Source of the DNA: Fennellomyces sp. T-0311
Lineage: Eukaryota; Mucoromycota; Mucoromycetes; Mucorales; Lichtheimiaceae
Direction: 5' to 3'
Assembly: GCA_025266875.1 (NCBI GenBank)
Contig: JALLLT010000001.1
Coordinates: 1,178,001-1,242,000, forward strand
DNA length: 64,000 nucleotides
The notes under the pieces were generated by a model that made no database searches, was not told where the DNA came from, and was given only the letters and a program-made list of their open reading frames with translations. Below are positions 2,249-34,144 of this stretch, piece by piece (within the stretch, counting starts at the first letter, position 1; the number at the start of each line of letters is the position of its first letter). Made by a program: the position numbers and the translations under genes.

Positions 2249-2283
2249 ATTCCCAACGTAATAAACCATCTTGCTTCAGTGTT

Positions 2284-5965: not shown

Positions 5966-7720
5966 AGGCACCAGTAGAAGTGTGAGTTTATTGAAATACT
6001 TGAATTACAGCCATTCTTCTTACTCCATCCCAGTCGACTTCTTTCTTGACAGTATTGCCGTATTGGACTTTTCTAATCCGCGTATGCAATCCCCTTTGAG
6101 CTTTCGAAATGGACGGAAACTCTTTCCGTGCCTTGAGGTCATCCGCAAGTGTTACCACTACCTTGCGCGAGCTTTTCTGTAATGAGCTACAGTGCTTCGT
6201 CACCCATTCCAAGTTCTGCGCGCGATTGTCCTGCCGATCTCCGTTGAGGTGCTTGACAACATTTTGTGTTTCACTGTAGCCCTCAACGAATGCGTTGGCC
6301 ACGAGGCGGGAAACAATTACATGATTTCTGCGTATCTTTGTTGTGTCTAAACAACTGCCTTTTACGACTTGCTGATCAGAAGAGATTTTTACGTGAATAT
6401 ACCCATCCGATGTACACCATAACGCAAGAAGTTTAGAATTGCCTATCCTGCGAACGTGGCCCATGTCTGACACTTCGTACTTGCTGAACGATCGCCCGTT
6501 CCAGGGAAGAGTACCAATGGGTTTCCATTTTGTTTCTTCGGTAACTGGTGGCAATGGCCGCTTTGTGACTCTTTTGGGTGCATTTCCTTGTTCCTTCAGC
6601 AGATTACGGGTTTCTGTTTGTACTGGACCATAGCTTCGACTTTGATTTACGGAGCGAGTAACGAACTCGAGGTTTTTGAGAGAATTGTCTGCTTTTTCGC
6701 CGCTGAAATGATCAATCTGGAGATTATCCACTCGGCGTCCTTTAAAAGACTGCAACACGATGCTGTGCACTAAGATATTGAAACTCTCCCTATGCGTTTT
6801 ACCAGTGGCAGCATCTGGAACGAGTTGCACCATTTGATATCCGTGGCTACTATTATTGCGAGGGCTAAGGTGCTTTCGCGTGATAAGGGAATAAATGCCT
6901 CCAGCGTCCGAGACAAGGTATCGCTCGAATGTCGAATCGTCACGCACATTTCTGACCACGGTGTACTTTGTGCCTGAGTGTTTTTCCTGGAGTCTCTCGA
7001 TTTCGATGGCTTGCAGTGTCGGCAAGTCGCACACGACGAGGTTGGCCCACGCACAATTCTTCTGGTTTCCGTCTTTGTGGTAGATGTAGTGCTTGCTCTT
7101 GTCATGCTGCTGGCCGGAGAATGTTGTAGCCATGATTTCATCCAACTTTAAACAGATGCACTTTCTGTCAACATGAAGTCGGTAATTGATAGAATTCGCT
7201 TTTTTATTTGGTTCCAATAGCTTGAGTTTTCCGGAAGTATTTGAACTTATGGCACCCAGCTTGTTGACAAAGTAACGGGGAGGCATGGTGGTTGGCAGCT
7301 TTGGATGACGGATTTGATGCCACTCGAGTTCTTCAGCTGTGCTCGAGGTGGGCGTCTCTAAAGATAATGCGTCAATTTTCGCATAATGATTTCTCCTTCA
7401 CCCATGCTTACCTGCATCGTCTTCTCTTTGCTCACTGTTCTTGCACACGCTGCTCTTCTTTGTATCAAAGTCTATACGCCAATGACTAACATTCAGCATG
7501 GAACGACTTGGCCCATCTCAACATCCTCCCATGGCTTACCATGCAGTTCCTCGTCAACAATTCCTTCTTCTGTTGATAGCTTCCCTTGAGACAAGACGCG
7601 TTCTCTTGTCTTGAAGTTTCGCATTGCGATGAATAATAGTGAAAAAAGAAGGTGCAGTTGTTATGGGAACGCCAGGGGACGGACAAATAGAATTGGTGCT
7701 TTTTGTTTACAGGTGCTGCA
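5966..7720 (-). mobile_element. NUMOD4/HNH element, copy A
   Basis: This block of about 1755 bp recurs inverted at 32387-34144. Similarity starts abruptly on both sides: the promoter-side edge is near a GCAGCAC motif (7714-7720) and the 3' edge is at GGTGCC, just past the stop codon. Inside are 5' flank, a 54-bp intron, the coding region and about 20 bp of 3' flank. The flanks outside the two copies are unrelated. No convincing target-site duplication is visible. A weak similarity between the two edges (CACC-n-GTA) might be a remnant of short terminal repeats, but I would not rely on it. The block sits in an intergenic region and interrupts no recognised gene. Confidence 0.7.
5988..7499 (-). 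CDS. NUMOD4/HNH homing-type endonuclease, copy A
   Basis: Two exons (7412-7499 and 5988-7357) around a 54-bp intron (GTAAGC donor, CTTTAG acceptor) encode 485 aa. The ATG at 7499 is chosen because exon 1 joins in frame to sequence upstream of the internal ATG at 7286. The protein shows three NUMOD4-like plus HNH-like units. Unit 1 has YFVNKLGAIS then HKDGNQKNCAWANL. Unit 2 has RYLVSDAGGIYSL then IDHFSGEKADNSLKNLEFVT. Unit 3 has KYEVSDMGHVRR then VKHLNGDRQDNRAQNLEWVT. NUMOD4 and HNH_3 domains are known from DNA-binding homing endonucleases of phages and large viruses. A nuclear intron shows this copy is adapted to host expression. Activity is not shown: units 1 and 2 deviate at likely catalytic positions, and unit 3 looks most complete. 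It differs from copy B mainly in a few dense patches. Confidence 0.75.
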
Positions 7721-9127
7721 ACGTGATGCAGATGCTCACCAGGCATTAGTATTAAGGCCCTTTACGTGATAGATAGATTTCCGTAAAAGATTTGAGGAAA
7801 TAAAGGCGGGTCACAGGTGACATTTTAAGGTGTATCTAGACATGTCAATGTGCCAAAAGGTTCTTCATCCAAAGTCATATTGCACTGTGGATAACCCTAT
7901 AATGGGAAGGTGCGTAATCGCCAGCGTCCAGACCTTAATCAGTGCCAATATACACTATGTAGAATCTGGCATCTGAATAACAAGTAGCTACCAAGATGCG
8001 TAGATAAGGTGATAACACTGCATGAGTGTATTATTTCCATTTTAGCTGCACCTTGAACTTTGTTATGTACCATTAACTAATAGCACCGTGAGGCACCACT
8101 GCATTGGACCACCAGCGATGAGCCCCCAAAAAGTTGCACGCAGTTACGTGCGTAAAATATTGGGATTGGTTAGCAATGAACAAGCAGTCGATATAGCCGA
8201 AATAGTGCCTTTTCTTTTAAAAATGATTATGCAACAACTTTGCTGGTATATACTATGCATCAACATTCCAGAATTAACATCAAGACCTTGCACTCTATGC
8301 ATATACAAGAAAGACAGCTGCAAAAAGAATAATCCTACTTCATCTAGGTACATATATATACACTCTATACCTCAATTATTGAAGTCAGATATACCAAACG
8401 CATGGAATTTACGACACTTGTCTGTCAGTACATAAGTGCTTTTTTTCGTTGCTTTCGTCTATCTACGTATGTATGTAGCAGCAATCTACTTTACGCATCT
8501 GTCTTATCATTTATTCTATAGCCATTAGATTGCTTCATCAGTACGACGACCAAGGTTATTGATGTTTCCTCAATACGTACTACAAATATGCGGGTGACCA
8601 CTGCATCTGCCGTACGAAAGTATTCGTATATTCAGCCACCTTTGCAATAAAAGAAACTACTGAATTATAGACTACTCTCAAATATGCCAAAGGAACGTGA
8701 CAGAAGGCAAGATGCGTATTATTAGAATTCGCATAATCACATTTTTACTCTGGAACGGCTACGATCATCAATATCTCATCATTCCGATCTTTTCTTCCGA
8801 ACCTATTGTGCGAGCCTTTTGTCTTGTTATGTAAAGTCCCGATGTGTTACCTGTGTAATGATCGATACATTATAATCGGGATTATAAGATGCTTAATCAC
8901 CGTAAATGTCAAGACCGGACCGAACAAAGGCACGCGGATTTTACCAAATCGAAAACGCCACCCCTCGCCCTTAATGCTCCATCCCATAGCCACTGTACAC
9001 TGAATGAGTGGGAAATTGTTTATTTTTTGTACAAACAAGCATGCAAATATCGACTAGATGATAACAAGGAAGCAAAAGAAGAGATAGGGGATTACACGGA
9101 AAGGGTCGATGTCCAATGGGAAGAGAA
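7721..9127. other. Intergenic, no gene seen
   Basis: AT-rich sequence between the NUMOD4/HNH element and the 3' end of 6-phosphogluconate dehydrogenase. It holds only short open frames without recognisable motifs or plausible splice partners. The longest (8088-8435, +) has low-complexity composition. I see no RNA gene or repeat family here. Confidence 0.5.
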
Positions 9128-10837
9128 TTAAGCATCGTAGGTGGAAGCAGAGACGTTACCGCCGCGGCCGGTCCAGTTGGTGTGGACCCACTTGCCGGGA
9201 GCATCCAAAAGTTCGTAAGTGTGGGCACCAAAGTAATCACGCTGAGCCTGGAGCAAGCTAGCGGGCAACAGCTCGTGACGGAGACCATCGTAGAAGTTCA
9301 GAGCGGTGGAAAGGGCGGGAGTGGGAATACCCATGATCACAGCCTGAGCAACAACGTTTCTCCATGCGTCCTGAGCCTTGGCAGTAGCTTCCTGGAAGAA
9401 GGGATCGAACAACAAGTTCTCGAGTTCGGGGTTGTTGGTATAAGCATCCTTGATCTTGCCCAAAAAGACGGAACGGATAATGCAACCGCCGCGCCACATG
9501 AGCGCAATACCAGCGTTGTTCAAGTTCCAGTTGTTGTCCTTGGCAGCCTGGCGCATCAACATGAAACCTTGGGCGTACGACACAATCTTGGCGGCATACA
9601 AAGCCTGACCGAGCTGAGCAAGGAATTCCTTCTTGTCACCAGTGTACTTCTTGTCCTTGGGACCAGAGAGAATCTTGGAAGCACGGACACGCTCATCCTT
9701 CAAGGAAGACAAGCAGCGAGAGTAGACAGCCTCACCAATCAAGGTGACGGGGATACCGCGATCCAAAGAGTCAATGGCGGTCCACTTGCCGGTACCCTTC
9801 TGGCCAGCGGTGTCACGGATCTTTTCAACCAAGGGCTTACCGTCGGTGTCCTTGAACTTGAGAATGTCACGAGTGATCTCAATCAAGAACGAATCCAATT
9901 CACCCTTGTTCCATTCAGTGAAGACTTCGGCCATTTCATCGTGAGTCATGCCGAGACCCTCAAGCATGATTTGGTAGATCTCGCAAATAAGCTGCATGTC
10001 ACCGTATTCTTTTTTTTTTGTTTGGCAACCCCACCATATTAGTTCATTGCTTTACCCTTTACGCGTAACGCTTATTCAGCTTACCAATGCCGTTGTGAAC
10101 CATCTTGACATAATGACCAGCACCGGTGCCACCAACCCAGTCGCAGCAGGGCTCACCGTCAGCCTTAGCAGCAATAGCCTGGAAGATGGGCTTGATGGAC
10201 TCCCAAGCGGCGGGGTTACCACCAGGCATGAGGGAGGGACCGAAACGCGCACCTTCTTCGCCGCCGGAAACACCCGAGCCGACAAACAAAATGCCCTTCT
10301 TCTCCAATTCGGCGCAGCGGCGGATGGAGTCGGGGTAGTGGGAGTTACCACCGTCAATGATGATGTCTCCGTCCTCCAAGAAAGGCAAGAGCTGATCAAT
10401 GAAAGCATCGACAGCGGAACCAGCCTTGACAAGCAAGACGATCTTGCGAGGACGCTTCAACTTGGCGCAAAGCTCTTCGACGGAATGAGCTCCGACAATG
10501 TTGGTGCCTGTTGTCCCATTAGAATCACTTCCGGCGCGTGTGTGTATCAGGTGGCTATTTAATACGTACCCTTTGCCTCGTTGGCCAAGAAGTTGTCGAC
10601 CTTGGAGGTGGTGCGGTTGTAGGCACACACGGTGAAACCGTGATCGTTCATGTTCAGGATCAAGTTTTGACCCTAATACGCTATACGTCAGTCCCGGTTC
10701 AAAGCGAAAGACGCGTGTTTCATATATTACCATGACAGCCAAACCAATGAGACCAATATCAGCGCTAAGCGAACGCGGGTTAGCATGATGGTACATATGG
10801 TGCTGCAGCAAAAACAGACTTACACAGCTTCGACCAT
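9128..10837 (-). CDS. GND1: 6-phosphogluconate dehydrogenase, decarboxylating
   Basis: Cytosolic enzyme of the oxidative pentose phosphate pathway: 6-phosphogluconate + NADP+ gives ribulose 5-phosphate + CO2 + NADPH. Five exons (10824-10837, 10731-10764, 10570-10672, 10085-10507, 9128-10008) give 484 aa, normal for the family. The first exon is only 14 nt (MVEA plus two bases), completed by the second ([10 protein letters not shown]). The NADP-binding start reads [18 protein letters not shown]. The catalytic region has [25 protein letters not shown] sequence and the active-site motif [19 protein letters not shown], which spans the last intron. The helical C-terminal domain follows, ending in [16 protein letters not shown]. 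Strong bias to C-ending codons suggests high expression and explains the long antisense open frame on the other strand. Identification is essentially certain. Confidence 0.96.
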
Positions 10838-11375
10838 TTTTGCAGTTTTCTCTTCTGAGGTAAAAGATGGAGAAAAAGAAAAGTGTGTCGGCAAGCGGGT
10901 TTTGTAGGGGGTGAAAATCCCAACAAAAAAGGCGGTGATGTAAGCAGATGATTAAGCACAGTAGAATTGATCTATCTTGCCGATCGGGGTCCTAGAAGTT
11001 CCATGCCGTTCCCCATCGATTATCATTGGCTCAATCAGTTCACCTGGTCTTTTGCCTATATAAATCCATAGTTTGGATAATCAACCGTTTATTATGCCAT
11101 GACGCCAACCCCAGCTTTCCCGTCGCCCAAAATTTTCCGCGCTTCCCGCCTATTTGGGGTTGAGGCGGGCTCTTACGGGAAAATCCAAGGAAAAGAAGGA
11201 CATCAAACTTTATGTACACTAATCATGCCGATTGGCTGAGAGTTTTTTCGTGCTGGCAGGTGGCGCATTTCTCCGTTTTATCGGCTACATCTTTTGTGCC
11301 TAAATCAAGTTAAAAAAGCCGGTGCATTAATATAAGATTCGATATGATGGATCTCATCATCGCGTCTTTATTTCT
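10838..11375. promoter_or_regulatory. Upstream region of GND1
   Basis: This 538-bp stretch separates the GND1 start codon from the PTRHD1 stop codon (both genes on the minus strand), so it should hold the GND1 promoter. A TATATAAA-like run lies near 11056, about 220 bp upstream of the ATG. That is far for a TATA box unless the 5' UTR is long or spliced. No defined operator was recognised. Confidence 0.3.
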
Positions 11376-11953
11376 CTATCGGTACAATGAGCAGTACTTC
11401 TTGAACACGTCCTTGACCTCAGCTGACCGTTCGCGCAAAGGTGCCGTCGCAAGCGCCGTGGGGATGTCTTCGGGCTGCTCCACCCATTTGTAGTGCGGTA
11501 CCTGATATTCCTTTAGCGCTGCTTCCAGCTTTTCCAGTGAATTAGCGTTTTTGGTCTATTCACATGTTTTTTTCAGCATCAGATTTTTGCCAGGGTCCAA
11601 TAAAGGGGCTTTGCGATACCTCAAGGACTACTTTATGCATTCGTGTGATATCGGTCAGGTATTCCATTGTGTCCGGATCGTTCCTTGTCACGTGTAAAAC
11701 CGCCGTTGCAGCATGACAGGCCTGCGTCATCACACTGCAAAAACGTTGGTTAGTAAGCGGGTCTTACCGATCGTTGCTGTTTTTCGGCAGGATCACGCCG
11801 ATTGTTACCTCCCCGTGTTCCAATTTAAGCTCTGACTAATCGATTAATTCATGATTACAAACAGGAAACGTGCACACACACTCCTACCTTGGCCAAATCC
11901 TTGCGGACTACAATGAACATTGTCAAATGTTCAGTTACTGCTGCTGTTGCCAT
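11376..11953 (-). CDS. PTRHD1-type peptidyl-tRNA hydrolase
   Basis: Four exons (11888-11953, 11809-11831, 11620-11734, 11376-11555) encode 127 aa with consistent phases. The second exon is only 23 nt. The fold is that of PTH2-family peptidyl-tRNA hydrolases, which recycle prematurely released peptidyl-tRNA. The match is closest to the eukaryotic PTRHD1 subgroup: FIVVRKDLAK at the N-terminus, VMTQACHAATAVL (the family's QACHAA core), MHKVVLE, then YKWVEQPEDIPTALATAP near the end. The length fits the family. Human PTRHD1 activity on peptidyl-tRNA is uncertain, so the reaction is inferred from the fold only. Confidence 0.82.
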
Positions 11954-12330
11954 GGTAATGTTGTGCGAATATCGCGACTTGCGGAGAACGGTTTTGACGC
12001 GTTGAAATTGGTTTGTTCGCCTAAAAAAAGAGTGGGGCCCCATATTACATCATAGATCACTCGATTCAGGGCACTTAGGAATCGATGCAGCGGCAATTTG
12101 TTTAGGCTTAGTCGATCCGTGACAGAAATGACAAATCGGCTATGGCAGAACTGATATGCATAAGTAATTTATTTTATACAAATCATGAATGAAGATACAA
12201 ATAGCGATGAAGGTGTGCAAAAGGTGGTTTTTTATATGTCGCGATACAACATGAACAGTGATACAGAAAAATGCAGTGCAAATAATGAAAACAGACCCAC
12301 AAACGCTCACTACAGCCAAATAAAACACAA
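11954..12330. other. Intergenic between PTRHD1 and RhoGEF genes
   Basis: A stretch of 377 bp containing the PTRHD1 upstream region and the RhoGEF 3' flank. Only short spurious open frames are present. No specific element was recognised. Confidence 0.4.
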
Positions 12331-15300
12331 TTACTTTAACCTCATCAACTCAAAAACCAACTCCGAGCCCAGCACAGGATCATCCATGGCACAGTAGATC
12401 GTGTCCATGGCATCAGGTTTCAGGCATCGTATATTTTTGCCAGGTATCACTTGAACAAGATCGCCCTACGAATGGTCAGTACGCTTGATTGCAGTTAGTT
12501 AGAATAGCTCCCCTTACCGTATCGATGTGTCGCACTTCAATAAATGTCGGATCAAACGCAGCAATGTATGGGAAACTCAATGCAAATGTTGTAGGTTGAC
12601 CTTCCCACCGGATCAACCAGTCCGGTCGGGCACGCCGGCCCTTCTTGTCAATGTAAAATGCCATTTCTATACAACGTTATAAGTCTCTGATATCCAGCAT
12701 GCGTCAATGCTTGCTTTACCATTATAGCACAAGAGAATGCTGCCGTTGGGATGGCGGAACATGGATATGGGCTTGATATTTTCGCGATGCAAAAGAACAT
12801 GATGGCTTTCATCGTTTGGATCCAGTACGCCTAATTTAACGATTAGCACGTGTACACGCTTTTATGCAAAATATGTAAACTTACTCTGCACCTCTGTCGA
12901 TTTGAGATCAACCATTTGGAAACCTTTGGGGCTACCGACGCAGATAATACTCTTAAAGTACTGAATCGAAAGCGCCTCGGCGGGGAGATAGAGTTCCTTA
13001 TAGATCTTCAACACCTCTTTAGAGCCCATCAATCGACCAAATTTGGACTTGGACTTTTTCTCGGTGCCCACGTGGGGTTCCAGCACACGGATGGTAGATG
13101 AAATGGCATTATTCCGTACATAGCAGACCAAGGTCTTCTCGGAAGGTGTGCCTTGGAAACTCGTGCCCACTTTGAAGAACGATACATGGCTACTGAGCTT
13201 CCGACCTTTCTTGGCAGGATCTTCAGCGAGTAGACTTTCGATAGAATAGGTATATAAAATCTTCTCGGCAAGCACCAGTATTAACCCGGATGATTCCAAC
13301 ACATCGATCTGGGATACTTTATCCGTCGATAATAGTCGAGTAACATGCTCGCTCTTGCTGTCTTTTCTAATATACACGCCTTGGTTGCTGCCTATTACCA
13401 CAGATTCACCTAGCGAGCACTCGGTAGGTTAGTAAGCAGTCCCTTGCATACAAAAGTATAGTTTACCATATGAGGCAGCACAAGTGACACGGTTGAACGA
13501 ATTGAAGAAGCGCGAGTTGATTGTGCGGATATCAAATACTTTTTGCTTTTCCATGAGTGTTTGCCGTTGTCCCTGAATCTTGTCGACCCATTGTCGTCGG
13601 TTATGAAGCGTGGTGGCATACAGTGTAATTGGATTAATGCCACGTCTGCCGAGGTAATTGAATGTAATGGGGTATCCTTTGTTGGAGGTGCCGGAATTGG
13701 GTGGAGGAGCAGCAGCAGCAGCAGCCACTGTAATGGCGTCGATATTGTTGAGAGATGAGATAGACCCAGAAAGACTTGGCCGCCCGTATGGCAAGATCGA
13801 GCTTCCTCGTCGCGCAGATTGATCTGGGAGTGATATAGATAGCAAAGCTAGAGGTATCGGCTACCATATCGGTGAGTCTCTGCACTTGTGACACCTGCAA
13901 GGTCCTCAATCACTACCTTTTTGTATATTTTGTAACGCTCGAGGCTGTTGACGAACTTTTGCTTGACTATTAATATGCAATGATCCAAGAGGAACACCTG
14001 GAGGTCGGCAGATTCGGACTGGTTGGCTCCCTTCCGCTTCAACGGACCCTTCATCATGATCTCGCGGTTTTCGGCATCCAGGTTCAAGTTCTATAAATTG
14101 ATGCCAATCAATCGGGTGCAATCTATATTTATAGCACACGTAAATGCTGAAAATAACTCTCAGCTTACCGTGAAGCGTTCATCCACGCCGAGAGGAGCCT
14201 TATACGAGAGCTTCTCAATAAGCAATCTGATGTTGAACTTGCTTTCGATTTTGCCCGTTTCGTGATTAACGTCGCTCAGGAATTCCGAGATCACACTCAT
14301 GGCCTTTGGTATATATTCGTGGTCTGGATGGTTCTGGGGCGTGCGTTTGAGGATTTCTCGCAGCAACAGATTGTATCGACCTAATCGCGTGGTGGGTTTG
14401 GTCAAATAACCATTCAACTCCAGCTTGCGCGACTGAGGCAGGCGTTCAGTCATCTAATAAAAATTATCGTTATTAAATTTACTTGATCTGGAACGTCTCT
14501 CAGATTCATTTACCTCGACAAACTCGGCAAACATTGGGTTCGTCGCCTTTTCCGTCTCGAAAACGTGGCGACTGATCATTTGATGCGAACCGTATTGAAC
14601 AAAAGGTCCGAACGACGCAACGTGTTGAAGCATAATGTCGCCCACTTGATCCACCACTGACGATATCTTTTGGCGCTCTTCCAAAGCCGCGGCCAACAGC
14701 ATATTCACCTCGCATACTTCTGAAATGTTCCAAAACACTTCCTCCACGAATTGCTCTCGACGCTCGGCTGGTATGTACTCGCCCTCAAGTAAAGGAGTAA
14801 TCCAGTGCTATCGAAATAGAGCATGTTAGCCTCTTTCTTTTTTTTTACGTAATCCGCTAGTGACGAACCTTTTGTATGTAGGTCAAGTCATCGACAAAGT
14901 CTCGTTCAGTGTATATCAGCTCAAAGATGTTCTCCTGACGCTTCAATTCGTCCTTGGAAAGTTTGCTGGAGATTTGCTTTGGCACGGTATTGATCCAAAG
15001 CCGATCCTCCTAATACAAAAGGTCATTAATGGGCCTCCTCGAATGGCAATATTGCCAACCAACCTTCTCTACCAATGAAGATTTGCTACTGGAACGATGC
15101 AATGTCTTTTGCTTGACCTGTTGCTACGCATCCAAAATGGTTAGCACCGGTTTACCCCTTTTATGTTTGCATGGAACCCACTTGTTCTAGACGCCGTGGA
15201 CAAAAGACACTGTAACAGAGGCTTTCGCGAGTACACGTAGGGGAATAACAGTCGGTAAGAATAGTAAATACACCATTCGGCAAATGGTCATCGTCGTTGG

Positions 15301-21031: not shown

Positions 21032-21364
21032 ATGAGCAACAGCACCGATGTTGGGCTACAAGCACCGCCCACCTACGAACACTCTGGTCCTTTGGCCTTC
21101 CTGATCGATACGTTTGGCACAATACTTGGGCTATTCAGCTTATATCTAAGTCCTATACTCTCTATATTGGTAAGTATTCTAATAATGAAAATTGTCTGTT
21201 TAAATATTTCAAAAATAATCGCATTGAAGTTTCTTAATCCAGCATCAGTGACACAACTTACGTTGATATGGTTACGTACAATCAACATTGGAAGTACTCA
21301 GTGGCACCATCAACGATTCCTCCTTTACATAGGGTCAAATGTGGCAGATGAGTTTAATACATAG
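21032..21364 (+). pseudogene. Possible truncated stomatin/SPFH-type gene fragment
   Basis: The frame opens with MSNSTDVGLQAPPTYEHSGP followed by LAFLIDTFGTILGLF. This resembles the N-terminal tail and membrane-entering segment I associate with fungal stomatin-like (SPFH) proteins. The resemblance stops after about 40 residues, where the expected Cys/Pro-rich segment and SPFH domain should begin; the rest (NISKIIALKFL and beyond) is hydrophobic and unlike the family. I read it as a gene-end fragment or relic. The alternative is a short unrelated membrane protein. The recognition is from memory and weak. Confidence 0.3.

Positions 21365-22551: not shown

Positions 22552-22552
<1 letters not shown>

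Positions 22553-22579
<27 letters not shown>
22553..22579. repeat. (TA)n microsatellite
   Basis: An uninterrupted TA run of about 26 bp, roughly 200 bp upstream of the start of RhoGEF paralogue 2. Confidence 0.9.
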
Positions 22580-22582
<3 letters not shown>

Positions 22583-22775
22583 AAAAGAACGCAGGCTGCA
22601 AGCCAAGAAAGCATGTTAATCCAAGTCTTTTGATCATCGCGTGCGCCAACGCGTAAACTCCGGCTATTCTGCTGAACACTCTTCCCAGAAGTACTTTTCT
22701 TCTTTTCTCCAACTCTTTTTATTACTATTGTTAAACAAAAGCCCCCACACCACTCCTTCATGAATTGCGCTTGTC

Positions 22776-25700
22776 ATGTCCCAGCATCATCAAAGAACTG
22801 CTAGTGACTCCCCGAACAAGTCCCCTGCGCTGGAAGCGCTCTACAACGATTTAGATGCATTCATCCATGAGCTGTCAGGAGATGGTCAAGGATCATTTAC
22901 GCTGAACGGCGCGCGAGATGAGTCACCTACTGGCTTGAAAGAAATCGAGGTGAGTATCCTTGTTGCATGCATATATTTTATTCTGTTATCTTGACATGCC
23001 CCATTTTTTTATATGAAGGCTCGGGACCAAGAGCGTAATATAAGTCGAGACTCACTATGTCCCACAGAAGACGAGGAATCTTATACGGGCTATTCGCCGT
23101 TGCTCGAAAACTATGCCTATGCGAGACCTTTTGACGCTCAACAACGAAAATCAATCATCAAACCTGATGAACAAGAGCAAGGAGAATTGCCAGTCAACAA
23201 TTCTCTATCTCCACCCATGTCACCTTCCGTCTTGGGCATCGCTCAAACATCAAAACATCAGCATACTTCATCCATCGATACCGTGTTTATGCCTCGCACA
23301 AGCTCATTGAATAACCAGCACTCGACCCCCTCCTCCCCTACTTCGGGCCTAGGTCCAATGAGTATCCACGATGTTCTCATGTCGCCCACAAACCGAACAC
23401 CCGCAACGGCAGTTCAGGCGCCTCTGTTGTCTTTTCCAGATTACGCAATGTTGTCCCAGCTGGGCGAAAAGTTGGTGCTTGAAGTGCGGGAACTCAACAA
23501 GCACCGTCGGATATTCTGTTCAATTGAATATCCGTTAAGTTTTACCGGTCAAGAGGCGGTGGTAAGTTTGCGTGCAGCCCGGGAAAAAGTAAAGGGTTTA
23601 ACGAAATTAAACGTTTTCCTTCGTGTTAGCAACTCATCCAATCATTCCTGCCAGGCGCAATATCCGATACCAATGCATTGTTGGTGGCACGTGCTCTCAT
23701 ACGCTCTTCTCCCCCTCTCATTGGCCCCATCTCGTACTCGGAAAAGTCGCTCAAGCGAAACACGCTGTACGAGTCAGAGTATGAAGTGTATACCTTGCTG
23801 GAGGAGGATCCCCAGCTGCCTCAGGGCGTTTTTACGCCATTGACACGTTGTTACACCCAATCGTGTTTGCCCGGTCAGGGAGGCTGTTATGCGCCGCTGT
23901 GTCCGAATCGAGACTTGTTGCCGGATGATGAAGACGATGATGATCTCAGTAACGGAGAGGTCCAAGAGAAGAAGGTTAGTACTTCTTGATATTATCCATG
24001 GTCGGCTAACACGGCTACTCGTAGGCATTGAAGGGTACAAAGGTTAATCGAGAAGCTTCGTTGAAATCGGTGACATCTTCTCATGATACGGTAAGCAAAA
24101 GCCACTTGATGCCAAGCTTGAACTGATCAAGTTCCATAAAGACACTTTCGCGTGCCTGGTCGGCTACAATGTCTCGTGAAGTGCTACTGAACACATCCAA
24201 GCAAGAGATTGCTCGACAAGAAGCCATCCACGAGATTATCTACACGGAAGAAGATTACGTACGAGATTTGAATCTACTGGATGAGGTAAGATGAGACATT
24301 TGCAAGCAGACCACCAGAAATATAACACAACAAGCAATCAGCTTTTCGCGAAGCCGTTGCGAACGGCACAATGTTTGGATGCGGATATGCGAGACGAATT
24401 CTGCGACAATGTATTCAACAACTACAAAGACATCCTGACGATCCATCGCGAGCTGTGTCGCGACTTACGTGATCGACAAAGCGAAAGCACGGGAGGCTTT
24501 GTTGACCATGTAGGCGATGTATTTCTCAAACATTTGCCTGGATTCATGGATGCCTACAGCCAATACGGTCCTCATGTGATTCTGGCAGAATACGCAGTGA
24601 AAAAGGAATCAAGCGATAACATTCTTTTCCACAACTTTATTCGCGACACTGAAAAGAAAGCCGAGTGTCGCAAGTTACCGTTTCGTCACTTTTTGATTCT
24701 TCCGGTGACTCGATTGCAACGTTATCCATTGTTGATCGGAGCTATTCAGAAAAAGACGCCCGATGATCATCCCGATAAGGCATATTTGTCTTCATGCACA
24801 GACATTTTGCGTGAAGTGGCGACTTGCATGGATGAAGGTACCGAAGAAACCAAAATGGCATTGCGTATCCGTCAAGTCAACGATATGATTCGATACAAAC
24901 CGGGTGAGGAGGAATCGTATAATCAATTGCAACTGATGGATCCCGAACGACGATTGTTGCATGAAGGTCCATTGACTCGACGGTCCAATATGGGTGTGGA
25001 AACCATCGAGTTGCATGTCTTTTTGTTTGATCACTTACTGCTCATGACAAAACCAAGAAAGGCCGGAGGTGAAATCGAGTACCACATTTCCAAAAAGCCT
25101 ATTCCGTTGATGCTGCTGCAGGTTCAGGAAGCAACGGAAGGTTTTGCCGTCGGTATGCGCTCCATGACCTCGACCACGGCACCTACTTCGCCACATCAAC
25201 AAACAATCACATCACCAACAGGTTTTGGTGTGGGTGTGGGTGTCGTTGGCGGTGGCGGTGGCAATGTTTCCATGACATTGAATCATCTGGGACGACACGG
25301 TGGTGATTATCTTTTGTATGCGGAGAACGCCAATGTTCGATTGCAATGGAAGGAAAAGGTGGTGGAAGCCAAGGCGGCGCTGGAACAAGCGCATCCGGAA
25401 CACCAAGTGTTTGAGATAAGGTCGCTGAGCGATGCACACTTTGCAAGTCCTGGATCCCACCACGCGGCTTTGAACCACGGCAAGGTCACCTGCTCTATTC
25501 CGTTCGGTATGTTTCACTCTTACATAATATTAACGTTCCTGGGCTTTTCTGCACTTACTAAAGAACCTATTTCTATAAAGAGGGAGCCAATGGCATTCGA
25601 ATGATTGCTATTGGTACCAATTTGGGCGTCTACATGGGAGTGGAAGGCGATACAAGTAGCACGCGCCAGGTACTATCTTTGTCAGATGTTCAACAGATCG

Positions 25701-26781
25701 CGGTACTTGAAAATAATCATATCTTGGTCGTACTTGCTGGTAAGTTTTATCGCCCAAACTCTGTAACAGGAGCATTCATGCATATCAAAAAAGATAAAAC
25801 CCTGTACGCCTATGCGCTTCAAGGATTGGATCCAACGGCAAATGGAAGTGGTGGTAGCAACAACAAGAGCAACAGCAATCCGCCTAGCCAGAAGATCGCG
25901 CAGCACATTACCTACTTTTACGCTGGCATTTGTAATGGTCGAACACTTGTGGTTGCTATGAAACGACGTGGTATGGATAGTCATTTCCGCGCATACGAAC
26001 CTGTCTGCGGCGATTTGCGTCATCCCAAAAACGCAAAGTTCCTTGCTGGGCGATCGGGGTTGTTCAATATCAAGCAACCGCCTTCTTGGTTCCATATCTA
26101 CAAGGTAAAAGATAGAAAGGTGGCGGAATTACTGCTTTTGTCTTACATATGGGAATTTTCAATAGGAATTCTACATTGGAGCCGATTCCTCAGCTGTACA
26201 TCTACTAAAGGCACGTGTAGTTGTCGTGTGTGTCCGCGGCTTTGAAATCATCGACCCTGAGCATTTGACCATGAATCGTAACTTGCCGGATGTGAAGCAT
26301 CCAGATTTCGCTCCAATCTTGCAACGTGGTGACGATCTCAAGCCTCTCGGCATGTTCCGTTGTGGTGGATACTATCTGCTATGCTACAATGCATTTGCGT
26401 TCCTGGTGGATAATCATGGCACGCTCATACCAAACTCGTGGATTGAATGGGAAGGTACACCCGAGACAATTGCTTTCTGTTATCCGTATGTGATAGCCTT
26501 TGATTCTCGATTCATCGAAGTGCGACATGCAGAATCGGTAAGGTTTTGTTTGTTTGTTTACAAAAAAGAAAGGGGCAAAAGTTACTCACCTGAAAAAAAA
26601 AATGTAGGGCAAACTGATCCAAATCTTGGCTGGCGAACATATGCGGTGCTTGCAGTTTACGAACAGTTCAGCACCAGGACTATTTGCACCCATCATCCAT
26701 GGCTGTATGGCGCATCCTTTCAAGCCCGAGTTTCAATATGTATTCCAACTTGTTAGCACGTTCCAGCCCACAGGCGTTTAG
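22776..26781 (+). CDS. RhoGEF of the ROM1/ROM2 type (DEP-DH-PH-CNH), paralogue 2
   Basis: A second Rho1-type exchange factor with the same domain order as the gene at 12331-16626 but clearly diverged. In order: N-terminus MSQHHQRTASDSPNKS; a Ser/Pro-rich linker; a DEP-like region (LLSFPDYAMLSQLGEKLVLE to SLKRNTLYESEYEVYTLLEE); the Cys motif CYTQSCLPGQGGCYAPLCPN; the DH domain (IARQEAIHEIIYTEEDYVRD, LPVTRLQRYPLLIGAIQKKT); a PH domain (LHEGPLTRRSNMG) with a Gly/Val-rich insertion; and CNH (MIAIGTNLGVYMGVEGD to YVIAFDSRFIEVRHAES). The last exon (GKLIQILAGEHMRCLQF) ends VSTFQPTGV and TAG at 26779. Several short introns are clear, for example after IEYPLSFTGQEAV and after WFHIYK. Likely role: cell-wall integrity and polarised growth. 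Confidence 0.9.
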
Positions 26782-26814
26782 AAACGAGGAAAATCTCCCA
26801 CACACACATAACAC

Positions 26815-26853
<39 letters not shown>

Positions 26854-27167
26854 TACATACACATTACATATACCACTCAGCAAAACCAAAACTTCACACG
26901 CACACACCAAACAGCAACTCATTATTATTTCAACACTTTTCTAAATTAATATTGGTCGAATTATTTTTTAATTTGCATAATGAACAATAACACTTTTTTT
27001 AATACAACGGGACAATTGGCTCGATGCACGGTTGCACGGAAAACGTTATGCCGTTGGCCGGGATGGTACGTGTAACGTCGAGGCATACACCCACGCTCCC
27101 CCTTTTCTCCTTTGTTGACAGCATGCGCCAGTTACACCAATCTTGTTTGTGGTTGTACAATTCCGTT
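26782..27167. other. Convergent 3' region with AC microsatellite
   Basis: The convergent ends of RhoGEF 2 (+) and the RsfS gene (-) are separated by 386 bp. It holds the AC repeat and AT-rich sequence suited to 3' UTRs. Open frames here are low-complexity translations of the repeat. Confidence 0.6.
26803..26851. repeat. (AC)n microsatellite
   Basis: A run of about 45 bp of CA dinucleotides with few interruptions, in the 3' flank of RhoGEF paralogue 2. It explains the cysteine/valine and histidine/threonine open frames across it. Confidence 0.95.
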
Positions 27168-27942
27168 TTATTCTTCCGCCTCGTTGCTGGGTATCCACAG
27201 GGCTTCCAGATTGTAGTGCTTGCGAACCTCCGGGGTAAACAAATGCACCACACAGCTTCCCAAGTCAATCAGCACCCAACCTGATTGATCGTCCTTTCCT
27301 TCGATATGTGGTGCTGCATATTCTTCCTTGGCCGAAGGATGCTCTCGTATCACCTTGTTCACCTATATATAACCCTGGGTTATAGCGCGCAGACCTCAAA
27401 AAACCCCCTGTCCAAAAATATACACGTACTGTTTGGCGAATCTGCTCAGCAACGTTGGTGAGAAATCGGTCACCTTTGTCACTCTCGGCTACAATCATAT
27501 AGTCTGTCCAATCACATCGTCCTCGTACATCCAACACTTGAATCGCGTCCATTTTGTTTTCGTCAAGTAAATCTCGGATATTCTCGGGTGACAAGTCGCC
27601 GGAATCAATCAGTCGTTTGGAAGCTTCTTGCATTGCCCATCGGCCATTGAGATGATCGTCTACTGCGCGACGTTGCCATAGCGGTACAAATTCTTTGTCC
27701 TCTTGATCTTCAACAAACCATTCCGTGTCAACGGGCTCTTCTTCACTTGGATAAAGCTCGGGATAATCTTGAGGATCGATCGTTTCGACATGTTCTTGAT
27801 CCTTATTTGGAGGTTGCTGCGGCGGTAGGTTTGTTGTCGTCGTTAACCAGCGCGGTTGACATGACAACAGGGATCGTTGTACAGGTCGCAATGGTGGTCG
27901 GACGAACGCGATCCTTGCGAATGATCGTGTAAACTTATGCAT
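27168..27942 (-). CDS. Mitochondrial ribosome silencing factor (RsfS/MALSU1 family)
   Basis: RsfS-family proteins bind ribosomal protein uL14; in mitochondria they assist large-subunit assembly. Two exons (27430-27942 and 27168-27362) around a 67-bp intron give 235 aa. The start [20 protein letters not shown] is preferred over an upstream in-frame ATG because it begins a typical Arg-rich mitochondrial targeting sequence. An acidic linker ([20 protein letters not shown]) follows. The RsfS domain occupies the C-terminal part: [20 protein letters not shown], then after the intron [20 protein letters not shown] with the conserved D-x-G-x-x-V-V-H-x-F motif, and [10 protein letters not shown]. In yeasts this domain can be fused in ATP25; here no second domain follows, so it is a stand-alone factor. 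Confidence 0.87.
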
Positions 27943-28397
27943 ATTTTTGGGGAACAATAAGAGGAGTATGGAGCAAAATTTTCGCGTTCCGCATGTCAAC
28001 CGAAAAAAAAAACGAATTGCAAGGTTGGGTGTTTCACAGAACCAGGCACGGATGACCACCAAAAGTCATCCGATCGTTTGCCATTATTTTTTTAGCTATC
28101 TCACCCACGATCGCCGTGGATAGAGCCGCCCCGTTCTCTCACGCATGACTCATAACTTTTTGAGGTAGTTTCATGGATTTTTTTTGGGGGGAGGATAGTT
28201 TTCATTACAAGAGAGAGAGAGAGAGGGGTATGTATAGTCATATAGTTATATGTATATAAGAGGGAAGAACAGAATTATCTACAAAAAGCCGATAGATAGG
28301 ATAAGGGAGAGAGAAGCTTGGAATGAATATGCAAGTATAATAACACATGATGGATGGACGGGTTTTTTGGGATGTGTGCAGACGGAAAACGAGACAA
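27943..28397. other. Intergenic upstream of the RsfS gene
   Basis: A 455-bp stretch with a short GA-rich run near 28210-28224 and poly-T tracts. It carries the upstream region of the RsfS gene and the 3' flank of the zinc-finger gene. No other element was seen. Confidence 0.4.
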
Positions 28398-28988
28398 TTA
28401 GGTACACTGAGAAGGCCGTGGCTCAATGCACGCAACATTGGCCAGATCCCTCAAGGATTCATAAAAGAGCGGGGTCTCTCGGAAGCGTGCAAACCCCTCC
28501 AGCGCCTCGAATTCGTCCAGGGTCAAATGAATCGGGTTGCACAGATCGGCTACGGATAAACGTCGTTGTTTCGGCACATCCTCGTCGCTTTCGTCGTCTT
28601 CCCAGTGCGGCTGTTCGGGCGAGCCCAGCGAAACCGGCGACATCAAGCCGCCCTGATACGTTTGCTGGTCCTGCTGCTGCTTTCGTTGGTGCGTGGGTCG
28701 ATGTGTTTGGGTGTGCTGCATCATGTTATCGAAACGACTGAACATACGAGTGCAACCAGGCACGACGCATTGGTACGGTTTCTATACAATAGTACGTGAG
28801 CAAAAAAAAAACGTGAAAAATTTTTGCCACTTTTTCTTCCTTACCTCGCCAGTGTGCTTTCGCGTATGCCTTGCCAGATGCTCGCTTCTGGTGAAGACCA
28901 TATGACAGTCGCCAAAGCCTTTGCATTGGAACAGTTTGGGTTTGCTTTCGGTGGAGTGGCTGCTGCGCGATTTTTTGATGGGCGGCAT
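28398..28988 (-). CDS. Small C2H2 zinc-finger transcription factor
   Basis: Two exons (28845-28988 and 28398-28781) around a 63-bp intron give 175 aa. Two adjacent C2H2 fingers lie at residues of about 20-75. Finger 1 is [20 protein letters not shown] followed by RHTRKHTGE. Finger 2 is [20 protein letters not shown] followed by HTQTH. The pair and the TGEKPYQC linker, which spans the intron, resemble fungal two-finger factors of the Rgm1/Usv1/Seb1 type, which bind stress-response-like elements. The C-terminus is acidic and Gln-rich with [20 protein letters not shown]. An upstream open segment (about 29050-29160) could be an additional 5' exon, but no acceptor precedes the ATG at 28988. The target genes are unknown. 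Confidence 0.82.
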
Positions 28989-30174
28989 GTTTTGTGTTGC
29001 AGGTAAAAAAAGAATAAAAAGGTAAAAAAAAAAGGGGGAGCGAAAAAGTTCTCGGCTTTACCTTTTTGTAAGCGCTTTCTGTGGCCCAAACTTCCGTCAT
29101 AGTGATGTTGAGCTTAGGCTGGATTCCATGACGTTCCACACGATCCTTTGACTCATCCACTCTACCCCCCGTTCTTTTTATGGCGCCGACGTATTTTTAC
29201 GCGTCTCTTTTTTTTCCTGGCCCTGCTGCTGCGGCACCCGTCTTTGGTTTTTCAGGCCTTCCATGCGCCGCAGAGAGCAGGAACAATCATCTGATCAACT
29301 CAAAAAAAAAGAGCATCACCTGTTGCAGTGTCGCACAAGTGTTCCGCTTGGTCAGGGCGCGATTCAGGCACGCTCTAAACCCAATTTTGCTGAGCGTTCT
29401 TGGGTCATTGTAACCTCATGCCCCTCATTGTTTCTCATTCTACCACTTCTTTCCCGAACATCGCCGCTGTTCGGCTGCCCTAGAAGCGGGCTCCAGCCGC
29501 GTGTTCTTGCTAAACCCACAACTCCTTGACAGCCCGCCAACCTGTCCCTCCCTTCCTCGCCTCTCTCTCATTATTAATCCCGCCGCCGGCAGCTGCAAAC
29601 CAGTAATACACTTTCAGGTTCGGAGCTGGTACGGCCTTGCTTTTCAGCACTTTATGACATGTGCATCTATGCCGGGAAACGTGATCTCGCTGCACCTTTC
29701 CCAGCCTTCCGCTCGTCCATTTTATCAAAGTGGATGACGAGATCGCTCCTTTTTAGCCCGACAATGCGCTAGTGCCGTCTGCAGTGGCCGTCTGTCGTTG
29801 TGACACTATCGTCACGAGGCACGCGCTCCCCAGATGAGCGATCCCAACGATATCAGCGCCGTTAATATAGATACGCAGCTGTCGGGGCAGCGCTGCGCTT
29901 TCTACGAGCCCAATCTTCTCTTTATTGATCCGTTGGCTTGAACTGGATGATCACCGGCGCCCAGGCCCAACGTGCGGTGCCGTGGGTTGAAGCCGGATCA
30001 ACGATGATCCCAATAATTGAGGATGACATGGACAGCGGCGTTTTCTTCTTTCCACAATGAGCAACACGTCCGTGCCTGAACCCAAAAAATACTCCGATAC
30101 GAAGCAACCACCGGGTGGCTTTGCCCTGGCAACTTGCTTGGGTCTGTTGTATTGCTTTCCAAAACCTTCCAAAT
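28989..30174. other. Intergenic between divergent zinc-finger and uL30m genes
   Basis: About 1.2 kb, more GC-rich than other spacers, presumed to hold the divergent upstream regions of the C2H2 gene (-) and the uL30m gene (+). An open segment at about 29050-29160 (-) might be 5' coding or UTR of the zinc-finger gene. No defined site was recognised. Confidence 0.35.
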
Positions 30175-30459
30175 ATGCATCGGTCATTCAGCAGCAGTGC
30201 CACCGCCGCCAAATTCTACAAAGTCACCCTAACACGCTCGACCATTGGTCTGTCCAAAGACTACCGTGCCGCCGCCAAAACTCTCGGCCTGGTCCGTCTG
30301 CATCAAACCTCATACCAACCCGTCAATCCCAGCACTGCCGGTCTCATTTTGAAGCTGAAGGAAATCGTACGAGTAGAAAATGTCGACCGTGTTCCAGACA
30401 AGTCTGAAACCGTACAAAAGGCTCAGCGCGGTTACAAGGTTGTGGGTCGCATGCTGTAA
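30175..30459 (+). CDS. Mitochondrial large-subunit ribosomal protein uL30m
   Basis: An intronless gene of 94 aa. The N-terminus MHRSFSSSATAAKFYKVTLT combines a short Ser/Arg targeting peptide with the first strand of the uL30 fold. The core reads KVTLTRSTIGLSKDYRAAAK, then TLGLVRLHQTSYQPVNPSTA and GLILKLKEIVRVENV. This matches the L30 pattern (K-V-T-L-x-R-S-x-I-G, L-G-L-x-R-x-x-x-x, G-x-I-x-K-v-x-x-x-v-x-V). Known yeast counterpart: MRPL33. The tail GYKVVGRML is typical of fungal mitochondrial versions. It lies about 2.2 kb from the mitochondrial RsfS gene. Confidence 0.92.
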   Translation: MHRSFSSSATAAKFYKVTLTRSTIGLSKDYRAAAKTLGLVRLHQTSYQPVNPSTAGLILKLKEIVRVENVDRVPDKSETVQKAQRGYKVVGRML

Positions 30460-32386
30460 GACGCATGATGTAAATAATAAAAAAAAACTATTCTTCTACG
30501 GCTATGTTCATGCTACAATGACGTCTGGATATGAATCATGCACGCCATGCTCATTTAGACAGTTGCTGGAGACGCTTCATGATGACATCCGTGATCGTTT
30601 CAGGCACGGTTTGAGATACATATATACTCTTCATGCATATAGTCACATTCCAAATTGAATCTGTAAGTATGCTTATCCGTTGTCATCTTTCGATGTAGCC
30701 TACTTCTGTCCACAGGAGCAGGGTGAGACTATCAGCAGCCGCTGTTTTTCTTTCTTACCGACTAGGCAAATGTTGCTTTGCACACCGTTGCACGGTCAGA
30801 CAACGGACCATCTGACAGACCGCGAAAGTGCGTTCCCATTGGTCTACGAAGCACAGAGCGACACGTTAGTACTGATGGAAGGGAACTCTTGTTTCGCTCT
30901 GGAACCCAGCATCCAGTAACACATGCGGTCTAGTCGTTCAACGTCTGTGCACCACGTGTGATTCATGCAAAGCTTGTCCGATGAACAAAGCCGCCGTTCT
31001 TTGCCATTAATATATGAAAAAAGATACATTTAAGCAAACGCTGCAAGGTAGTGCGCAATGATAAAGCCAAAGCAGTGTTCTATCCAATTCTCATTCACTT
31101 TCGGAAAGACCGATAAGAGCCAAAAGTTGGCGACATCATACTGTTTTCACGACCCCTTATTATCGTCCATGAAACGCCGGATATAAATATTCACGTGTGA
31201 GTAATTTACTTTTTCCAAAGCGTATAACCAGGTCGGGACTCGGTCCGGTTCCCTTTGAATGATCATGAAACGATCGTCCGATTATTCGGGCGTCCTTCCT
31301 CATTTAATGGGATGATCAATGCCCCTCGGACAAATGTTTTCTCCAGGATCACACACGCACTCCTTCGCGAAATAACATTATCTGCTTTAGGCTCTTACCG
31401 AACATCTGAGATCTCGTGTACCAGATTTTTCACAGCTTGAAAGTCATAGTGTCTGGTATTAATAGAAAGTGGTTTGAAGCAAATATAGTAATAGCTTTTT
31501 GGAGTTGATGATCACCTTTGGCATGAATCTTGTCATGCACTATTTAATGGTCGAACAGGTGATATGCTTGTTGTTTGACATGCAGTCAAGGAGCGATGCG
31601 CAGCTACTACGCATACAAGGAATAATGTTATTAGTGCTGTTGGTTTTGCGTGACATCAACATTTTTGTTGTGCGCTATTGGCACTCCATCTAGTTTCTGG
31701 CCATCTAAAACAGGAATACCTCGGTATCGTTGTGATACTATAGCTTTTGTGGGACATGGAATGTTGCAACGAAAGATGAACTACTTAAGTGTTAATGGGA
31801 TCCAATCATAGCCGATATGTAATGTCTTTTATGTCAATCCCAGAGTATATCAATCTTATATGTAACGTTTCTAGTGACGAAAACGTTTACAGCTATTTTC
31901 AAAATTCCCTGGGTAATAAAGTAAGTTGTGGTTGGGTAATAGTACACGACGTTGCATTGCTGACGACAACTGCACTTTTCAGTTTTTTTTTATCAAGTGT
32001 CTTTCCTTCGCCGTTGCTCTCTTGGTGATAGGGCGACATACCACCCTTATATACTTGGTAGCCGACTTTTAAGAAGCTTTGGAGAGTATGATACTTATTG
32101 AAGGGCACTTTTCCGCTGTGTCCAACGCTACTATGCTATATCTGATCGTCTGTTCCATTTGCTTACGGTTAGTTGGTACAAAGCATACTTTTTGATTTTC
32201 TGTTACTGAAATCAGATATTTCTAGCGCTTACATGGATGCAATTGATTGGATACCTAGTAATGTTCAATAAAGATACATTGCAGGTACAACATACAGGTG
32301 TCTCAGATTCTTTTTTTATGTGTATCCATCCGTCGTCCTTCACATAGAGATGTATTATTCAGCTTCAGCCTCACTAGAAACTTATC
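30460..32386. other. Intergenic, no gene seen
   Basis: About 1.9 kb between uL30m and NUMOD4/HNH copy B. Several open frames of 60-80 codons occur, none with recognisable motifs or splice partners. No tRNA or repeat was found. Confidence 0.45.
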
Positions 32387-34144
32387 TGCAGCACATGTAA
32401 ACAAAAGGTACCAATTCTATTTGGACGCCTCCCTGCAGTTCCCATAGCAACTGCACCTTCTTTTTTTACTTTTTTCGTCGCAATGCGAAACTTCAAGACA
32501 AGAGAACGCGTCTTGTTTCAAGAGAAACTATCAACTGAAGAAGGAATTGTTGACGAGGAACTGCATGGTAAGCCATGGGAGGATGTTGAGATGGGCCAAG
32601 TCGTTCCATGCTGAATGTTAGTCATTGGCGTATAGACTTTGATACAAAGAAGAGCAGCGTGTGCAAGAACAGTGAGCAAAGAGAAGACGATGCAGGTAAG
32701 CATGGGTGAAGGAGAAATCATTATGCGTAAATTGACGCGTTATCTTTAGACGCGCCCACCTCGAGCACAGCTGAAGAACTCGAGTGGCATCAAATCCGTC
32801 ATCCAAGGCTGCCAACCACCATGCCTCCCTGTTACTTTGTCAACAAGCTGGGTGCCATAAGTTCAAATACTTCCGGAAAACTCAAGCTATTGGAACCAAA
32901 TAAAAGAAGAAATAATATCAATTACCAACTTAATGTTGGCAAACAGAAGCGCACCAGCTTCAGATTGGATGAAATCATGGCTGCAACATTCTCTGGCCAG
33001 CAGTATGACAAGAGCCAGCACTACATCTTCCACAAAGACGGAAACCAGAAGAATTGTGCGTGGGCCAACCTCATCGTGTGCGACTTGCCGACACTGCAAG
33101 CCATCGAAATCGAGAGACTCCAGGAAAAACACTCAGGCACAAAGTACACAGTGGTCAGAAATGTGCGTGACGATTATACATTCGAGCGATACCTTGTCTC
33201 GGACGCTGGAGGCATTTATTCCCTTATCACGCGAAAGCACCTTAGCCCTCGCAATAATAGTAGCCACGGATATCAAATGGTGCACCTCGTTCCAGATGCT
33301 GCCACTGGTAAAACGCATAGGGAGAGTTTCAATATCTTAGTGCACAGCATCGTGTTGCAGTCTTTTAAAGGACGCCGAGTGGATAATCTCCAGATTGATC
33401 ACTTCAGCGGCGAAAAAGCAGACAATTCTCTCAAAAACCTCGAGTTCGTTACTCACTCCGTAAATCAAAGTCGAAGCTATGGTCCAGTACAAACAGAAAC
33501 CCGTAATCTGCTGAAGGAACAAGGAAATGCACCCAAAAGAGACACAGTGCGGCCATTGCCACCAGTTACCGAAGAAACAAAATGGAAACCCATTGGTACT
33601 CTTCCCTGGAACGGGCGATCGTTCAGCAAGTACGAAGTGTCAGACATGGGCCACGTTCGCAGGATAGGCAATTCTAAACTGCTTTCATTGTCGTGTACGT
33701 TCGGTGGGTGTATTTTCGTATATATCTACTCTGATCAGCAGGTCATAAAGAGCTGTTGTTTAGACACAACAAGCACACGCCGATATAATGTAATTGTTTC
33801 CCGCCTCGTGGCCAACGCATTCGTTGAGGGCTACAGTGAGACACAAAATGTTGTCAAGCACCTTAACGGAGATCGGCAGGACAATCGCGCGCAGAACTTG
33901 GAATGGGTGGATAAAGTGAAGGGCTCAACTAATTTGAACGCGCGCAAGGTGGTGGCAGTACTTGCGGATGACCACAAGATACGGAAAGAGTTTCCGTCCA
34001 TTTCGAAAGCTCAAAGGGGATTGAATATACAGATTAAAAAAGTTCATTATGGCGGTACTGTCAAGAAAGAAGTCAACTGGGATGGAGTAAGAAGAATGGC
34101 TGTAATTCAAGTATTTCAATAAACTCACACTTCTGCTGGTGCCT
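32387..34144 (+). mobile_element. NUMOD4/HNH element, copy B
   Basis: About 1758 bp, inverted relative to copy A at 5966-7720. The conserved block again starts at a GCAGCAC motif and ends at GGTGCC shortly after the stop codon. The upstream non-coding part is also conserved between copies and keeps a short open frame (about 32482-32613, beginning MRNFKTRERVL) open in both, which could be an upstream exon or uORF. Flanks outside the block are unrelated to those of copy A. Confidence 0.7.
32608..34122 (+). CDS. NUMOD4/HNH homing-type endonuclease, copy B
   Basis: Two exons (32608-32695 and 32750-34122) around a 54-bp intron at the same position as in copy A give 486 aa. Exon 1 begins MLNVSHWRIDFDTKKSSVCK and joins through DDAD to EELEWHQIRHPRLP. 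The three NUMOD4/HNH-like units are as in copy A: HKDGNQKNCAWANL, IDHFSGEKADNSLKNLEFVT (with a neighbouring R-to-H change) and VKHLNGDRQDNRAQNLEWVD. Long stretches are identical to copy A. In contrast, residues around INYQLNVGKQKRTSFRLDEI, SLSCTFGGCIFVYIYSDQQV and DKVKGSTNLNARKVVAVLAD differ at roughly half of positions, and one codon is added in the first patch. Both copies being open and spliceable argues for recent activity or selection. Function as a nuclease is inferred. Confidence 0.75.

Follow-up and report, generated by a model that had tools for sequence, protein, structure and literature searches.

Copies A and B are two NUMOD4-HNH genes within a 64,000-nucleotide stretch (the window) of contig C1, in the 45.6-Mb genome of the Mucorales fungus Fennellomyces sp. 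T-0311. They are nearly alike through most of their length and differ densely in four bounded patches. The explanation that we judge best, and towards which we incline with modest confidence, is that the patches, which lie in beta-hairpins and in the C-terminal region, are recognition modules that are exchanged within a recombining gene family and so retarget DNA binding. A common core is alike between copies, and the hairpin patches preceding the HNH helices, together with the C-terminal region, match other paralogs. In other subfamilies, too, amino acids are replaced more rapidly at these places, and the remainder is under purifying selection. If the patches are DNA-reading surfaces, each exchange would equip a copy with recognition modules in a new combination, and so with a new DNA target. 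All comparisons between copies were made within this one genome, and coordinates are collected in Table 1.

Both copies are intact three-exon genes with GT-AG introns of 68 and 54 bp. An earlier reading of the sequence alone had located both genes properly, but their starts lie 125 bp further out, in first exons of the type found in deposited protein P0003. Translation from an internal ATG yields 432 (A) and 433 (B) amino acids, and spliced translation yields 504 and 505. Patch residues are numbered here according to the 433-residue form of B, and the structure model of B is numbered 23 higher. With Pfam curated cut-offs of 24.8 bits for HNH_3 and 23.4 bits for NUMOD4, copy A scores 84.3 and 37.5 bits, and copy B 78.5 and 35.6 bits. 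The deposited model for copy B, P0003, has only 357 amino acids, apparently because extra introns were predicted in it; the DNA of exon 3 is a single open frame throughout. The deposited model of another close copy, P0004, is likewise short (365 amino acids).

A and B are members of a nuclear gene family that has expanded and whose three-unit proteins are placed as NUMOD4-HNH by domains and fold. A protein search of the genome returned at least 86 rows, representing at least 61 places on at least 24 contigs, including at least 12, 7 and 6 places on contigs C117, C100 and C128; at least 36 of the 86 rows cover 400 or more query residues without a stop. We used 44 of the 61 places; L001, L004 and L015 are among those not used. 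The 42-row alignment omits C160_0 (cut by a contig end, with a stop) and C103_90 (broken), and counts based on 40 copies further omit C150_1000 (truncated) and C100_187 (a near-duplicate).

The differences between A and B are clustered, as had been claimed: 25 of the 101 differences in 1308 aligned coding nucleotides fall within the densest 60 nucleotides, and the maximum among shuffles was 17 (0 of 5000 as extreme). The proposed 3-nucleotide indel in patch 1 is present (Q42 is missing from A), and an alignment of the 54-bp introns, inspected by eye, does show 2 differing sites. In the 100 codons of the four patches, nonsynonymous divergence (dN) is 0.341 and synonymous divergence (dS) is 0.336, versus 0.016 and 0.031 in the other 344 codons; divergence over the 400 bp preceding the internal ATG is 6.0%. 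Codon alignment indicates that the patch differences are rich in replacements and not mainly synonymous, but synonymous sites are raised too, by roughly tenfold in dS (Fisher p = 4.7e-6 with a five-patch definition, which joins the unit-2 hairpin, included after group III had been seen, to the four A/B patches). Selected point mutation alone is insufficient to explain a tenfold silent divergence. Rather, the patches hold sequence of different descent, or the remainder was made alike.

Exchange of patches between copies, which had been offered as one of two explanations, is well supported by sequence comparisons and, in our view, very probable. We compared five close copies (A, B, C1_857, C24_803 and C127_40). 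Within the patches, the best tree lacking an A-B pair leads the best tree with one by 40.9 log-likelihood (lnL) units; outside them, the tree with the A-B pair is ahead by 74.0. When each patch is analysed separately, 1, 3 and 4 yield the tree ((A, C1_857), (B, C24_803), C127_40), and 2 yields ((A, C127_40), (B, C24_803), C1_857). Variable sites that separate A from B make up 82 of 108 in the patches versus 20 of 158 outside. Four pairs share runs of identical variable sites that were matched in 0 of 10000 shuffles each: A and C1_857 (40 sites, residues 352-394), B and C24_803 (29 sites, residues 275-311), A and B (29 sites, residues 122-155), and B and C1_857 (25 sites, residues 191-244). The longest runs of the remaining 6 of 10 pairs are unremarkable (472 to 4708 of 10000 shuffles). 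A statistic of the pairwise homoplasy index (PHI) type was reached in 0 of 1000 shuffles. Because segments common to copies conflict with a single tree, exchange by ectopic recombination is indicated, and gene conversion is its likely route.

These data also bear on two explanations that dispense with exchange. One is hypermutation aimed at the patches, under which dN and dS would increase together. The equality of dN and dS in the pooled A/B patches is what it predicts, and no close donor of B patch 3 was found in the genome, but tracts identical to C1_857 and C24_803 extend across patches, and three pairs from groups III and IV show no significant rise in patch dS (p = 0.35, 0.17 and 0.65); we therefore rate hypermutation as very unlikely. 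Those same pairs are replacement-rich in their patches, as would be expected if one gene had recently been duplicated into A and B and diversifying selection had then acted only on point mutations. However, the tenfold dS and the match of A/B patches to other copies leave that idea the least probable of all those considered.

Two histories would fit A and B, which may be recent duplicates that received foreign patches or old paralogs that were homogenised outside the patches. In the C117 subfamily, homogenisation of old paralogs is favoured, because cores are alike and flanks and C-termini are unlike: the copies at 1232855, 1275652, 1308710 and 1338188 (L023-L026) have cores that are 92-99% identical and then different C-termini, and each gene has its own 5' flank, C-terminus and 3' flank, with the break at about the same point. 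These four genes, whose flanks lack similarity, are a sharper example of segment exchange than A and B.

The patches occupy particular places in a predicted structure. An AlphaFold model of B, built with 24 sequences, has a mean predicted local distance difference test score (pLDDT) of 87.5 and a predicted template modelling score (pTM) of 0.62, and consists of three beta-hairpin-plus-HNH units and a C-terminal domain. In this model, patch 1 is the unit 1 hairpin (strands 57-62 and 66-71 in model numbering), patch 2 is the unit 3 hairpin, patch 3 follows the unit 3 HNH, and patch 4 is a loop and strand following the C-terminal helix. In group III the unit 2 hairpin changes faster than any other patch, and the patch 4 region is the most variable stretch of the C117 subfamily. 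Along the strands, every other residue is highly variable (36 and 38; 153, 155 and 157; 299, 301 and 303), and those in between are better conserved and mostly hydrophobic; residues that are polar, charged or tyrosine account for 67% of the variable strand residues versus 19% of their conserved neighbours. The lists of outward and inward residues were picked after the alternation was seen; p-values for these lists and for the unit-2 hairpin are optimistic, because both were chosen after looking at the data.

Unit 3 of the model superposes on residues 1-96 of I-HmuI, a homing endonuclease whose structure is that of the DNA-bound enzyme, so the predicted unit fold is of the I-HmuI type. The N-terminal strands of I-HmuI are said, in a 2004 paper, to sit in the DNA major groove. 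By likeness to I-HmuI alone, the hairpin patches would face DNA, and the patches are putative DNA-reading surfaces. Retargeting of DNA binding by the patches is the best inference from their modelled position, and we think it slightly favoured. Passages of PMC3943268 describe enzymes of this type as contacting targets of up to 30 bp via tethered NUMOD regions.

Selection was assessed with codon models in a purpose-written script, with no PAML or HyPhy; for nine-segment site models, one tree was used per segment, with branch lengths fixed in each segment up to one multiplier. Divergence in other copies is not uniform. All seven close pairs tested, which comprise 14 copies, have a higher dN within the five patches than outside them (p = 0.0018 to 2.6e-23), although for the pair A/B this result is circular, since four patches were defined on it. 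Outside the patches, purifying selection is seen in all four groups (dN/dS ratio, omega, 0.38-0.62). The site model M2a is preferred over M1a on one tree by 51-57 in group I (two trees tried) and 39.5 in group III, and, with each of nine segments on its own tree, still significantly by 17.4 and 14.6. Omega significantly exceeds 1, on own trees, for group I patch 1 (3.51; twice the lnL difference, 2dlnL, 5.88), the group III unit-2 hairpin (2.18; 2dlnL 5.11) and the patches of group I when pooled (1.51; 2dlnL 4.18). Moreover, smoothed nonsynonymous profiles agree between groups I and III and between groups I and IV, with 0 of 409 circular shifts as good, and the synonymous profiles of these pairs do not (equalled or bettered by 235 and 30 of 409 shifts).

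The following results weigh against selected, exchanged recognition modules. The three significant results come from 24 patch tests (20 single and 4 pooled) uncorrected for multiple testing, and the other 21 include values below 1 (group III patch 3, 0.41). The proportion of nonsynonymous differences (pN) on the hairpin face, relative to the synonymous proportion (pS) of the gene, is 1.24 (1.00-1.50) when pooled, 1.06 (0.80-1.35) without A/B and 1.05 (0.62-1.53) in groups III and IV; the pooled rate, being near neutral, leaves room for relaxed constraint. Nonsynonymous profiles do not agree for groups I-II, II-III and III-IV (138, 74 and 108 of 409 shifts), and agree weakly for II-IV (31 of 409). 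The synonymous excess in patches is significant in just one of seven pairs, A/B. No donors of B patches 1 and 3 were identified, and for patch 3 the genome yielded no close donor. The pTM of 0.62 makes the mutual arrangement of the three units uncertain.

Several of these points could reflect random segment exchange by conversion combined with relaxed constraint, in which the patches are a tolerant surface that keeps old differences, with no retargeting. The near-neutral face rate without A/B, a patch dN/dS of about 1 in several pairs, and a pLDDT below 50 for model residues 333-340 within patch 2 are consistent with such a process. It is less easily reconciled with variability located on one face of predicted strands in alternation with conserved hydrophobic residues, with segment-tree site models that favour a class with omega above 1, or with the match of group I replacement positions to those of groups III and IV. 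We consider it a serious competitor, though a rather improbable one. The suggestion of diversifying selection is thus upheld in part, by the segment-tree site models, and is weakened by the pooled hairpin-face rate. Positive selection on a subset of sites is moderately supported by the codon data and, we believe, fairly probable; it and patch exchange, which had been posed as alternatives, seem to act together.

A minority of copies retain an apparently complete nuclease site. In I-HmuI, the catalytic set is D74, H75, N87 and N96. We counted a set as full when equivalents of all four were present, with D or N accepted at 74 and 96. Within A and B the full set occurs in unit 2 only, through which they could cut DNA. 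Family-wide, 11 of 40 copies, among them A and B, have it in unit 2, no copy has it in unit 1 or unit 3, and the other 29 lack it in every unit. An equivalent of His 75 is present in many more copies (37 of 40 in unit 2, 38 in unit 3 and 33 in unit 1), and thus the fold seems to be retained where metal ligands are lost. Copies without any full set would act as sequence-specific DNA binders.

Alternatively, the genes could be selfish free-standing homing endonucleases that cut targets and spread by repair, with patch change following target loss. The NUMOD4-HNH architecture, the I-HmuI fold, the dispersal over at least 24 contigs and the intact unit 2 set in 11 of 40 copies accord with this idea. 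Against it, 29 of 40 copies have no full set in any unit, and yet groups III and IV, which are without it, are under purifying selection outside the patches, and there are no clear terminal repeats at the ends of A and B. Furthermore, no Rfam family reaches its gathering score in the window, as a self-splicing intron might (inteins were not searched for), and the fungal genes show no sign of intron-encoded status. We regard selfish homing as unlikely.

NUMOD-HNH proteins are known as homing enzymes of phages and phage introns. Among the matches listed in open-licence PubMed Central (PMC) literature, no description of such a nuclear family was found, and the main text of PMC8778642, on protein-family expansion in early-diverging fungi, mentions neither NUMOD, endonuclease, homing nor Fennellomyces. 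I-HmuI (PDB 1u3e), from a Bacillus phage group I intron, shares its fold with unit 3. Unlike I-HmuI, the fungal protein has three tandem units, two of which (1 and 3) lack the full catalytic set in 40 of 40 copies, and is encoded by a nuclear gene with short GT-AG introns that is not inside a self-splicing intron. The T4 mob endonucleases resemble the fungal copies in being free-standing, with an HNH domain fused to distinct C-terminal regions, as set out in parts of PMC2988022; in contrast to the fungal family, they are five phage genes, and nicking and biased inheritance have been shown for MobA and MobE.

The best whole-model matches in the viral library are giant-virus HNH proteins of Klosneuvirus KNV1 (A0A1V0SJK4, E = 4.1e-24) and Marseillevirus LCMAC101 (A0A481YQZ2, E = 8.6e-21), which suggests a viral origin of the fungal family, albeit from fold alignments with an identity of only 17-18% and template modelling (TM) scores of 0.27-0.37. 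By sequence, Marseillevirus LCMAC101 P0031 matches with E = 4.2e-5 and two HNH_3 stretches; unlike the fungal copies, it also carries NUMOD1 and an I-HmuI-type domain (Pfam). The giant-virus proteins are viral genes, whereas here the genes form a fungal multigene family.

In evolutionary mode, though not by descent, the family is like the PRDM9 and KRAB zinc fingers, whose modules, according to portions of PMC6116924, are homogenised by conversion while DNA-contacting residues are positively selected. The fold differs, and exchange takes place among dispersed genes rather than among fingers within one array. In A, B and five further family proteins, Pfam finds no C2H2 zinc finger over the cut-off; one of the family proteins, P0012, has a sub-threshold zf-met match. 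For PRDM9-like selection on DNA contacts, site models favour selection, and the contacts themselves are presumed from I-HmuI, with the face ratio given above. More speculatively, dozens of three-unit virus-type proteins, mostly without a complete nuclease site, might form a combinatorial DNA-recognition repertoire. Their groove-reading hairpins would pass as cassettes from one dispersed gene to another through gene conversion, with selection tuning them, and new specificities would arise continually. Such a repertoire would be a non-zinc-finger counterpart of PRDM9/KRAB diversification; we put this proposal forward tentatively, as possible but on balance doubtful. Genome defence against changing mobile DNA is our favoured guess at function, the potential targets being transposons, rival copies and host sites. 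If exchange of recognition modules is correct, this large, constrained, recombining nuclear family would show a homing-type module becoming an evolvable DNA-recognition repertoire. The family's naturally occurring pairs with one patch in common and another unlike would then let the DNA target be related directly to hairpin sequence.

Table 1. Features of copies A and B, in window coordinates.
Feature	Position	Strand	Remarks
Copy A gene	5988..7624	-	Exons 7624-7540, 7471-7412, 7357-5988; 504 aa; spliced translation modelled on deposited protein P0003
Copy B gene	32483..34122	+	Exons 32483-32567, 32636-32695, 32750-34122; 505 aa; from deposited protein P0003
B patch 1	32902..32964	+	Unit 1 beta-hairpin (model), residues 28-48; A/B dN 0.364, dS 0.321
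B patch 2	33682..33789	+	Unit 3 beta-hairpin (model), residues 288-323; A/B dN 0.258, dS 0.424
B patch 3	33910..33978	+	Directly after unit 3 HNH, residues 364-386; A/B dN 0.630, dS 0.323
B patch 4	34021..34080	+	C-terminal region, residues 401-420; A/B dN 0.206, dS 0.226
B unit 2 hairpin	33238..33336	+	Residues 140-172; no A/B patch; hypervariable in C128 subfamily (group III omega 2.18)
B unit 2 catalytic equivalents	33397..33465	+	D193, H194, N206, N215, by alignment to I-HmuI (74, 75, 87, 96)
A patch 1	7146..7205	-	Codon alignment
A patch 2	6321..6428	-	Codon alignment
A patch 3	6132..6200	-	Codon alignment; inside tract where A = C1_857 (residues 352-394)
A patch 4	6030..6089	-	Codon alignment; A = C1_857 at 11/11 A/B-separating sites, residues 402-419

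The window also contains an inverted repeat at 40446-41295 and 42004-42853, with 850-bp arms that are 99% complementary and 708 bp apart. The same contig carries a third copy of the arm (89%), and pieces of the arm no longer than about 180 bp occur again at 37 or more further places (at least 40 matches in all). Between the arms, an open reading frame (41418-41774, minus strand) with no Pfam match holds the stretch MQELLEAFGAVSQLDP...LPRSDVGLTR, which by eye is like the tail of family protein P0029; on the strength of this resemblance, one family copy (P0029), or its gene model, may include a fused dispersed repeat.

Elsewhere in the genome, the copies at C100:185786 and C100:187702 (L028 and L029) are nearly identical (dS 0.007), in inverted orientation and less than 1 kb apart. 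Another family copy, at C160:1-1274 (L037), is cut off by the contig end; upstream of it is an inverted 79-bp piece that is 89% identical to sequence 85-163 bp downstream of the stop of B.

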